Assembly (NCBI GenBank): GCA_023091735.1
Contig: JALKBU010000105.1
Coordinates: 1-64,000, forward strand
Reading direction: 5' to 3'
Source: Trichomonas tenax
Lineage: Eukaryota > Parabasalia > Trichomonadida > Trichomonadidae
Length of the DNA: 64,000 nt
This document shows positions 4,020 through 35,262 of this stretch, piece after piece (position 1 is the stretch's first letter; every line of letters begins with the position of its first letter). Below the pieces are notes generated by a model, which was not told where the DNA came from, searched no databases, and worked only from the letters and a program-made list of their open reading frames with translations. The translations under genes were made by a program, and so were the position numbers.

Positions 4020-5246
4020 ATGTCTGGGCTTTATGCACGAGTGACGAGTTCTACTGTCAATCCAGGGCCCGGCTCATACAATCCGAAGCTAGGCACTACA
4101 AGTGACAAACCACGCGCGCCTGAATTTTCTCTTAAAGGAAGGCATGAATCATCCGAAAACGTCAATACTGCTCCATATCGCGATCTTCCTTCCTCCATCG
4201 GTTCTGGACCGAAAATATCCCTCGCGTCACGCCACGCGACGAGAGATGTTGAAAATACGCCAGGTCCGGGCTACGTTCCTCCAGCGTTAGGTGCAGACAC
4301 TCCAAAAGTGTCCATGTCGACAAGGCACGCTGAAGTACGCGATTCTAGACTCGATAATCCTGGTCCTGGCGCTTATGCTTATACACCAACGTTCGGCAAT
4401 GAAGCCCCAAAGGCATATATGCACGCAAGAACAGGTGACCCAATGGGCATAAACTCTATTTCTCCAGGTCCTGGTGCATATAACCCTGATTATTCGACTC
4501 AAAAGAAGAGAGCACCTTCTGCTTCGATGCACATCAGAACAAGCGAAAGATCGATCGAGACAACACCAGGTCCAGGCGATTACGCTATTGATCGTTCGCT
4601 TGGCGGCACAAAACCAACAATGCACGCGAGAACTGGCGATCCAATGGGTATCAACTCTATTTCACCAGGCCCAGGCGCTTACAATCCATCAGACTCTTCA
4701 AAGCCAAAGGCTCCATCATTCACAATGAAGGGACGCCACGAGTCTGTCGATCGTCCGAGCACGGCTCCATATCGCGATCTCCCATCATCAATCGGCCAGG
4801 GTCCAAAGATCTCTTTGGCTTCAAGACACTCAACACGTGATGTCGAGAACACACCAGGTCCTAACTATATCCCACCGGCACTCGGTGCTGATGCTCCAAA
4901 GGTTGCTATGTCATACAGACACGGTGAAGTCAGAGACTCAAGAGTCGACAATCCAGGACCAGGTGCCTACGGATACACGCCAGCTTTCGGCAACGAAGCT
5001 CCAAAGGCATATATGCACTCAAGAACAGGCGATCCAATGGGTATCAATTCTATTTCTCCAGGTCCAGGTGCTTACAGCCCTGATTATAACTCACAGAAGC
5101 CAAGAGCTCCTTCTTCCTCGATGCACATCAGGCCGAAGGATAGAACTGCCGATACAACACCAGGTTACACAGATCTTGGCTCCACACTCAAGGGTCCAGC
5201 CTTCACAATCGGCCTGAAGGAGAACCTCGGAATGATCCCTGTCTAA
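4020..5246 (+). CDS. STPGR/SHIPPO-repeat protein (ODF3/CIMAP-like), 408 aa
   Basis: The protein is built from Pro-Gly-rich repeats of the STPGR (SHIPPO) type: many TPGPG, SPGPGAY and NPGPGAY motifs spaced 25-40 residues, separated by short SxxxRH or MHxRT segments. Proteins of this family (ODF3/CIMAP) associate with microtubules of flagella and the cytoskeleton, so a flagellar or axostyle role is likely. Residues about 15-190 are duplicated as about 213-390, with the same order of blocks (APYRDLPSSIG, ENTPGP, PALGAD, DPMGINSISPGPGAY). The two halves use different synonymous codons, so the duplication is not recent. The GC content is clearly higher than in the flanks, as expected for an expressed gene. 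The start ATG follows an A-rich leader. Residues 391-408 form a non-repeat tail. Confidence 0.88.
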   Translation: MSGLYARVTSSTVNPGPGSYNPKLGTTSDKPRAPEFSLKGRHESSENVNTAPYRDLPSSIGSGPKISLASRHATRDVENTPGPGYVPPALGADTPKVSMSTRHAEVRDSRLDNPGPGAYAYTPTFGNEAPKAYMHARTGDPMGINSISPGPGAYNPDYSTQKKRAPSASMHIRTSERSIETTPGPGDYAIDRSLGGTKPTMHARTGDPMGINSISPGPGAYNPSDSSKPKAPSFTMKGRHESVDRPSTAPYRDLPSSIGQGPKISLASRHSTRDVENTPGPNYIPPALGADAPKVAMSYRHGEVRDSRVDNPGPGAYGYTPAFGNEAPKAYMHSRTGDPMGINSISPGPGAYSPDYNSQKPRAPSSSMHIRPKDRTADTTPGYTDLGSTLKGPAFTIGLKENLGMIPV

Positions 5247-33782: not shown

Positions 33783-33838
33783 TTTTATGATTTTAACATG
33801 TAAATTCAAGTATTTGACATGTAAAACATGCATTTGAC
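33783..33838 (-). promoter_or_regulatory. Two ACATGTAAA motifs before the WD40 gene
   Basis: TTAACATGTAAAT (33793-33805) and TTGACATGTAAAA (33813-33825) are written on the plus strand, within 45 bases of the WD40 start. They are copies of the motif that recurs in this window. The foreign island begins immediately next to them (about 33838), so the island appears to have inserted into this promoter. Confidence 0.45.
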
Positions 33839-34218
33839 AATTTTGTTGATTTCCCATATTCTTTAAAATGTTTTCTAATACTTAATGACTTCCAGTTATT
33901 AAAACATACACTATAAATTTTATCTTTATCTTTACATCTTTCATCATTTCCAATATATTTATATTTTAATTTAGTTTTAACATTTAAGTATTCATCAGCA
34001 TTTAATACCTCACAATCTTCATTTTGGAACATCATTTTAATATTCTGGGTTATAATTTCTTCTATTCATTCTTTTTCCGCTTTTTGTTGGAACTTTACGG
34101 ATGCAATAAATGGAAACACCATTTTCTTTTGGATTTTCAACAATTTTTATTTCATCTTCATCACATTTATGGGGTCTTTCACCTTTATTCCATCTATGCC
34201 ACGTAATAGAAAATACTC

Positions 34219-34246
34219 GGCTCATTGAGCCTGGACCCGAAGGGTC
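34219..34246. repeat. Double-hairpin insert 1
   Basis: Two perfect 5 bp-stem hairpins stand side by side: GGCTC-ATT-GAGCC (34219-34231) and GACCC-GAA-GGGTC (34234-34246). They are inside the coding frame and are much more GC-rich than the surrounding gene. Confidence 0.8.
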
Positions 34247-34353
34247 TTTACCTTTACATCTATAAATTAGTTCACTTTCACATCCTTTATATTCATTTAT
34301 TAATTCACAACCTTCATTTTTAAATTGTTCTTTAATCCATTCAGGATTTAAAC

Positions 34354-34382
34354 GGCGCCTCGCGCCTGAGGAACGAAGTTCC
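34354..34382. repeat. Double-hairpin insert 2
   Basis: GGCGC-CTC-GCGCC (34354-34366) and GGAAC-GAA-GTTCC (34370-34382), again two 13-base perfect hairpins with three-base loops in tandem, in frame in the same gene. Confidence 0.8.
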
Positions 34383-34467
34383 GAACCACGACCTGAGCGA
34401 ATTGAAATCTCTGAGTTGCTTATATCTGTTTTAATAGGTGTTGAATCATTTTTTATTACATTTTCTT

Positions 34468-34496
34468 GACTCGAAGAGTCTGAACCCTTCCGGTTC
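34468..34496. repeat. Double-hairpin insert 3
   Basis: GACTC-GAA-GAGTC (34468-34480) and GAACC-CTTCC-GGTTC (34482-34496). The stems are again 5 bp. The GAA loop (TTC on the other strand) recurs in all three inserts although the stem sequences differ. Confidence 0.8.
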
Positions 34497-34724
34497 TTAG
34501 ATTTAATTAAAAAATCGTATTCATTTAATTGTTTAATACCCCATTTCTTCATAAGCTCAGGCGAAACGATTGCCATATATATATAGATTATTTCATCCAA
34601 ATAAAAAAATTAAATTATTTTAAAAATTAACTTAAAAAATAGTTGCTCGGAATTACAATATAAATATATATGTTGGAATACATCCTCTATATTTAGAATG
34701 GCAAGTAACCCCCTCTCTATACTA

Positions 34725-34905: not shown

Positions 34906-35262
34906 CTACGCAAAAATGCAATCAATTGGTATACTTGGCTCAAAAAATTTTGTTGATTTACCATATTCTTTAAAATGTTTTCTAATACCTAATGAATGCC
35001 AATTGTTATATGAAATTAAATAAATTTTATCTTTGTCTTTACATCTTTCATCATTCCCAATATATTTATAACAAATTATTGATTTAGAGTTTTCATATTC
35101 TTCGGCATTCAATACCTCACAATCTTCTTTAATAAATATATGCTTTATGTAATCAGGATTTATCATTCTATAATATTGTTTATCTTTAAATCTTAAAATA
35201 TAAACAGGTACTCCGTCATCAATAACTCTTTCATCTATTTTATCACTTTTTATATTCGACAT
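34906..35262 (-). CDS. Single-domain virus-like protein, 118 aa
   Basis: ATG at 35262. The C-terminal two thirds (residues about 40-110: HIFIKEDCEVLNAEEYE, YKYIGNDERCKDKDKIY, NNWHSLGIRKHFKEYGKSTK) is the same domain as the second domain of the broken gene at 33793-34576, close to identical at the protein level and about 190 bases long at the DNA level. Cys, Trp and basic residues suggest nucleic-acid or metal binding. Its composition is very AT-rich, unlike host genes here. The product is unknown. Confidence 0.65.
   Translation of the reverse strand: MSNIKSDKIDERVIDDGVPVYILRFKDKQYYRMINPDYIKHIFIKEDCEVLNAEEYENSKSIICYKYIGNDERCKDKDKIYLISYNNWHSLGIRKHFKEYGKSTKFFEPSIPIDCIFA

Follow-up and report, generated by a model that had tools for sequence, protein, structure and literature searches.

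Paired GC-rich hairpins inserted in genes of Trichomonas tenax are probably copies of nuclear micro-mobile elements

One gene in the 64-kb stretch of Trichomonas tenax DNA analyzed here (referred to as the window) contains three closely spaced pairs of short hairpins, which raises the question of whether such pairs reflect codon usage, a functional structure, or an element that inserts into coding DNA. The six hairpins described in a sequence-only reading of the window were all located, at positions 34219-34231 and 34234-34246, 34354-34366 and 34370-34382, and 34468-34480 and 34482-34496, and they lie, as claimed, inside a single minus-strand open reading frame (ORF; 34037-34576). We refer to each pair as a double hairpin (DH) and number the sites in coding order. 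On the coding (minus) strand, the DH at site 1 (34468 to 34496) is GAACC-ggaag-GGTTC-A-GACTC-ttc-GAGTC, that at site 2 (34354 to 34382) is GGAAC-ttc-GTTCC-TCA-GGCGC-gag-GCGCC, and that at site 3 (34219 to 34246) is GACCC-ttc-GGGTC-CA-GGCTC-aat-GAGCC. The claimed size of about 28 bases fits the DH proper (28 to 29 nt) but not the inserted stretches, which, measured against DH-free paralogues, comprise the DH plus 1 to 4 bases (i.e., 30 bp at site 1 [L002 1731-1760], 33 bp at site 2, and 30 bp at site 3). The excess over the DH is 2 nt at site 3 and 4 nt at site 2 relative to an empty paralogue; at site 1, it is 1 nt in paralogue L025 relative to its own empty homologue. One arm pair at site 1 is broken in the window copy and intact in L025.

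Under a strict rule (perfect 5-bp stems with at least three G/C per stem, loops of 3 to 5 nt, and a gap of at most 3 nt), the window contains no DH outside this gene and no hairpin pair beyond these three. One hundred dinucleotide-preserving shuffles of the window gave a mean of 0.06 pairs (maximum, 2), and 2,000 shuffles of the gene stretch alone gave a mean of 0.001. A mere coincidence of Ser, Gly, and Arg codons was ruled out by these shuffles together with the reversed-pattern controls and the empty sites described below.

The host gene (34037 to 34576, minus strand; 179 amino acids from its ATG in an open frame of 190 codons) is a member of a multicopy family for which neither Pfam nor PHROGs gave a match. 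Two family members had at least 154 and at least 150 matches in the 53.4-Mb genome (1,528 contigs; the window is C77:1-64000); these counts are lower bounds (150 of 262 candidates were scored for one member and 150 of 251 for the other). Some copies are represented by more than one partial match. Of the 20 best matches that follow the window copy, 14 have a longer open frame. In an alignment with paralogues, the window copy shows a small deletion close to its 3' end, and the family-like frame seems to go on past the end of the gene in ORF 33793-34035. The structure of the family protein was predicted with low confidence (mean pLDDT, 46) and was given no weight. The ORF list, the DH scan, and the family matches together identified a second, tandem member without a DH (34906 to 35262, minus strand). 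The neighbors of the host gene are a WD40-repeat-like gene on one side and a Rab-like gene on the other (both named by eye from their translations), and the window also encodes a TOR-type kinase (PF00454, FRB) and a clathrin light chain. The genes around this DH copy are cellular and nuclear in type. A proteasome subunit encoded in the window has its nearest named counterparts in Histomonas (63%) and Tritrichomonas (59%), with metagenome proteins reaching 84%, so that the genome is probably that of a parabasalid.

The sequence-only reading had proposed comparing homologous genes for presence or absence at the three sites. All three were found empty in paralogues, with joined flanks that were 94 to 96% identical. 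Sites 1 and 3 were each occupied in nine other fetched copies and empty in others. No other fetched locus carried a DH at the exact place of site 2; contig C714 contains a DH nearly identical to the one at site 2, with a similar left flank. Among the rows listed from the paralogue alignment, at least the gaps of 30 and 27 bp coincided with hairpin pairs. Throughout the fetched loci, a structure-based list contained 63 distinct DH at 46 sites, although a few single sites may have been divided in two; the 63 include L073:7182, which comes from a control sample and is probably due to chance, and perhaps L047:1272 likewise. A homologue without the DH was found for 44 of the 63, with flanks at least 85% identical in 41 of these and at least three matches poor (70 to 80% identity), while the remaining 19 had no empty-site homologue. 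Many of these comparisons involve paralogues, among which insertions can be copied or erased by gene conversion.

A list of indels compiled without regard to structure from the first 68 loci agreed with this picture. Among 185 distinct insertions, 64 were GC-rich and at least 18 bp long, with lengths of 30 bp (n = 26), 33 bp (n = 8), 24 bp (n = 8), 27 bp (n = 7), 21 bp (n = 3), and other values (n = 12). An automatic rule detected a hairpin pair in 40 of these 64 (and none in the other 24) versus 2 of the 121 remaining indels.

Over the 46 sites, the typical DH consists of two 5-bp stems with 3-nt loops separated by a spacer of 1 to 4 nt (24 sites have 2 nt, 10 have 3 nt, 8 have 1 nt, and 4 have 4 nt), and single insertions mostly measure 21 to 33 bp. 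The stem vocabulary is limited: GGCTC occurs at 17 and GGCGC at 9 of the 46 sites, which together hold 34 distinct stem sequences. Seven stem pairs were found again at two to four sites, although one of them, GACC/GAGCC, may represent a single site. The observation that the stems differ while the architecture recurs extends beyond this gene, since DH of the same form with other stems are present in unrelated genes on other contigs.

A genome scan had also been proposed, and scans of this genome with selected hairpin patterns did find many paired hairpins. The GGCTC hairpin matched 73 and 72 times on the two strands (control, 6 and 5), the GGCGC hairpin 46 and 46 times, and the GAACCC hairpin 48 and 46 times (0 for the reversed pattern in both cases). 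A general double pattern gave 146 matches per strand versus 68 for its reversed form; its first 50 listed places included 18 perfect double palindromes and 4 with one mismatch. Among the matches listed, a partner hairpin stood on one side at 54 of 63 GGCTC places and at 40 of 55 GGCGC places. Of 37 GGCGC hairpins visible from both sides, 31 had one partner, none had two, and 6 had none, at a chance rate of about 5% per flank; the corresponding 37 GGCTC hairpins, scored by a looser rule without a chance rate, included 32 with one partner, 1 with two, and 4 with none. The unit is two hairpins.

Some copies form dispersed classes of their own. The class GAACCC-nnn-GGGTTC-CC-GGCGC-nnn-GCGCC occurs on contigs C1469, C1498, C1200, C597, and others; on C1469 and on C1498, about 2 kb of sequence contains several copies. 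None of three sampled copies (L049, L061, and L067) is located in an ORF of 90 codons. A variant with the spacer CTGC is present in near-identical copies on C18, C97, C108, and C897, which possibly belong to a longer repeat bearing one DH.

A second context for DH was found on contigs C96 and C479, in what we take to be Maverick/Polinton-like elements, judging from their gene content and from the Mavericks known in Trichomonas. A 7-kb stretch of C96 holds six DH (0.01 in shuffles). An ORF there with two DH has no Pfam match and is 61 to 71% identical to T. vaginalis proteins described as "integrase core domain containing," and the same stretch encodes a tail-fibre-like protein (Gp10_C) that carries no DH. 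On C479, a DH with one mismatch lies inside a type-B DNA polymerase fragment (PF03175). Positions 2819 to 4570 of L074 encode a phage-like tail-fibre protein (Gp10_C; PHROGs tail families) in a parabasalid Polinton-like element.

Among the GGCTC matches listed, 42 of 63 places lie within 6 kb of a family place or a polymerase/integrase place (201 and 97 places, respectively, together covering at most 5.4% of the genome). Another 18 of the listed places are more than 10 kb from any such place, some of them in nameless ORFs. We considered whether DH are Polinton cargo only and rejected the idea: only 9 of the 201 family places are within 6 kb of a Polinton-like polymerase or integrase, so that most of the family is not carried by Polintons, and both contexts carry DH. 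Five 8-kb interior samples contained no DH by the strict rule and, by a relaxed rule (loops of 3 to 4 nt only, which recovers two of the three window DH), a single one that lies in a piece of 42% G+C and is probably due to chance. No relatives of the integrase (two queries), the family, or the polymerase were found in IMG/VR viral contigs, and none in prokaryotic genome contigs. DH-pattern matches in four viral contigs were taken as chance (59 to 71% G+C; 0 to 2 other pairs each). Of 214 fetched proteins, only 1 (P0002) showed any of the DH-like peptide patterns in a short list.

The C96 integrase provides a clean case of insertion. A 30-bp DH adds 10 residues to it and is absent from that place in C395, C12, C1153, C302, C1471, and C1183; the residues are likewise missing from the metagenome protein P0103, and no DH-like peptide was seen at this place in T. 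vaginalis proteins, whose alignment is loose. When insertions were compared with empty homologues, the bases beyond the DH mostly numbered 1, 2, or 4 by class. In all 14 sites of the spacer-3/4 class, the four bases to the left and the four to the right were equal at 36 of 56 positions, versus 8 to 19 of 56 at eight shifted offsets (right-flank permutation, P = 0.013). Clear 4-bp duplications are ATAC/ATAC in L078 and GTTC/GTTC in L013; at window site 2, comparison with the empty paralogue points to a presumed 4-bp target duplication whose left copy (AAAC; 34350 to 34353) and right copy (GAAC; 34383 to 34386) share three of four bases. On this sequence evidence, DH insertion appears to duplicate 1 to 4 bp of target. 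The 1- to 2-base repeats (A, AA, and TT) are weaker evidence, as they could arise by chance in AT-rich flanks. Cut-and-paste MITEs are marked by a target duplication of fixed length and by conserved terminal inverted repeats; the DH have imperfect 4-bp repeats in the spacer-3/4 class, repeats of 1 to 2 bp elsewhere, and ends whose sequences are not conserved, and an apparent duplication length that differs by class (1, 2, or 4 bp) is unusual for one transposase. Finally, in L011 and L017, one DH is nested within another.

The claim that the insertions keep the reading frame was borne out. When only ORFs of 90 codons or more were considered, 31 copies had a close empty site, and 29 of these insertions are multiples of 3. 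The exceptions are L007 (29 bp) and L019 (26 bp), the latter length probably being an alignment slip, given that L012 at the same site has 1 base beyond 29. Of 10 insertions located outside ORFs of this length, 6 also have a length divisible by 3, but L005, L025, and L078, which belong to these 6, sit in shortened family genes, leaving few truly noncoding cases on which the contrast depends. The occurrence of copies outside ORFs also means that insertion into coding DNA, which had been proposed, is real but not coding specific. Since the length is not tied to codons (the other insertions outside ORFs measure 29, 31, 32, and 32 bp), purifying selection probably filters insertions for frame. In ORFs, 33 DH are in sense orientation, 3 are antisense, and 10 are undefined, a bias that may reflect filtering by stop codons in antisense frames. 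Different reading frames of a DH yield different peptides, and translation presumably reads through the DH.

Once inserted, the hairpin at site 1 decays. Across ten copies, 14 of 110 pair cells are broken and 1 is compensated; changes affect 16 of 220 stem positions (7.3%), 57 of 620 flank positions (9.2%), and 32% of loop positions, and there is no visible selection on the fold at this site. Loops also flip as a block between TTC and GAA (3 of 10 copies at site 1, 2 of 10 at site 3, and L012 versus L019 at another site), which suggests inversion between the arms, as would be expected if a palindrome underwent strand switching or cruciform processing.

The conjecture of a tiny, structure-defined mobile or templated element largely holds, given the empty sites and the DH of the same architecture elsewhere. 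On balance, we consider it quite probable that the DH of the window are copies of nuclear, structure-defined micro-mobile elements that insert in AT-rich DNA. The recurrence of stem pairs at different sites, the empty sites, the apparent target duplications, and the nesting all argue for mobile or copied elements, and the copies seen today would then descend from mobile copies. The main rival is de novo templated synthesis, in which a mobile parent plays no part and every DH arises anew during replication or break repair, through fold-back synthesis or template switching by the polymerase of the Polinton-like elements or by host repair enzymes. Such a process would account for the many distinct stem sequences despite perfect pairing in many copies, and the block inversion of loops does suggest strand-switch-like events at palindromes; furthermore, no enzyme for DH movement was found. 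We nevertheless judge it unlikely, as the stem vocabulary is limited, with certain stem pairs found at as many as four sites, no GC-rich arm that could serve as a template is visible by eye in the empty sites listed, and the strict two-hairpin form is unexpected from random fold-back.

Selection for a function offers another explanation. The shared architecture and the predominance of sense copies in ORFs might be expected of RNA or DNA structures, such as terminators or regulatory stem-loops, or of selected peptide linkers. DH are missing from close paralogues, however, the stems at site 1 change about as often as the flanks, with a single compensated pair against the 14 broken ones, and the peptides differ by frame; Rfam gave no match in the window or in L074. 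We regard a functional origin as very improbable, and more improbable still is the idea that DH are skipped by ribosomes in the manner of byps or removed from RNA as mini-introns. Byps are hairpin in nature. In Magnusiomyces capitatus mitochondria, they are many short inserts in coding genes, at 81 positions, that are skipped in translation (PMC5009743). Byps disrupt the frame, whereas the DH mostly keep it, a property of nearly all ORF copies that neither skipping nor splicing requires.

If the DH are mobile elements, their life cycle would be as follows. The element would be two adjacent GC-rich hairpins, usually with 5- to 6-bp stems and 3-nt loops and joined by 1 to 4 nt, that inserts into AT-rich DNA with a 1- to 4-bp target duplication and accumulates both within Maverick/Polinton-like elements and within a multicopy gene family. 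The machinery may recognize the folded single strand, perhaps as DNA or RNA, which would explain why stems vary while their pairing is kept. In genes, mainly frame-keeping insertions would survive, adding linkers of 7 to 11 residues in which Gly, Ser, Pro, or Arg is often abundant; thereafter the hairpin would decay without sign of function, and the loop between its arms could invert. A candidate source of the enzyme is an IS481EU-type DDE element. The IS481EU DNA transposons of parabasalids belong to the DDE type, and some of their families make duplications of 4 bp (PMC10045372). They differ from DH in encoding a transposase and having defined ends, and are a conceivable source.

In form, the DH are closest to the double-hairpin elements (DHE) of fungal mitochondria and, in effect, to the Rickettsia palindromic elements (RPE); byps, sponge hairpin elements, REPs, and the coding palindromes of nematomorphs are looser likenesses. 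Mitochondrial double-hairpin elements have reportedly been the subject of an Allomyces paper as well. To our knowledge, parabasalids have no mitochondrial genome, and we know of no enzyme for paired-hairpin mobile elements, which are a puzzle of organelle genomes. DHE are known from the mitochondrial genomes of chytrids, Schizosaccharomyces octosporus, and S. osmophilus. Those of the fission yeasts lie in intergenic regions and rRNA genes, and DHE are described as potentially mobile, with numbers that differ between relatives (PMC10085805). DH are likewise two adjacent short GC-rich hairpins that are present or absent between related sequences, but they reside in parabasalid nuclear DNA (the window, with its kinase and clathrin genes, being an example), in protein-coding frames, and in Polinton-like elements. 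RPE are palindromic and inserted in frame in ORFs (PMC10969869); DH share the in-frame insertion, whereas RPE are about 150 bp long, bacterial, and marked by a conserved peptide. DH thus differ from DHE in lying outside mitochondrial DNA and from RPE in their size and their varied peptides. REP elements are palindromes of 20 to 40 bp, some of them in genes, and are hypothesized to be moved by the RAYT transposase, which would recognize single-stranded REP DNA (PMC3733652). DH differ in lacking a GTAG tag, none being seen by eye in the 8-base flanks of one copy per site (46 sites), and the genome gave no match to the Y1 (HUH) transposase (PF01797), which was matched in 6 of 14 control genomes.

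Our search of the open-licence literature turned up no description of comparable elements, either nuclear or within Polintons. With somewhat more doubt than conviction, we suggest that the DH may constitute a new class of nuclear mobile DNA, about 30 bp long and defined by its fold, that is copied between Polintons and host families by a machinery recognizing paired hairpins and acts as a source of in-frame insertions. They would then possibly be the smallest known mobile DNA, a steady supplier of in-frame protein insertions, and a eukaryotic nuclear counterpart to the in-frame palindromic insertions of Rickettsia. Many copies, empty sites, and virus-like carriers in a nuclear protist genome would make the mode of movement testable.

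As for other features of the window, it showed no enrichment of a trichomonad initiator-like motif. An ORF at positions 1435 to 2256 contains many STHSIFPPTQYFHSLN-type repeats, and another, at 4020 to 5246, lies in a GC-richer stretch and is built of PGPGAYNP-type motifs in repeated copies.
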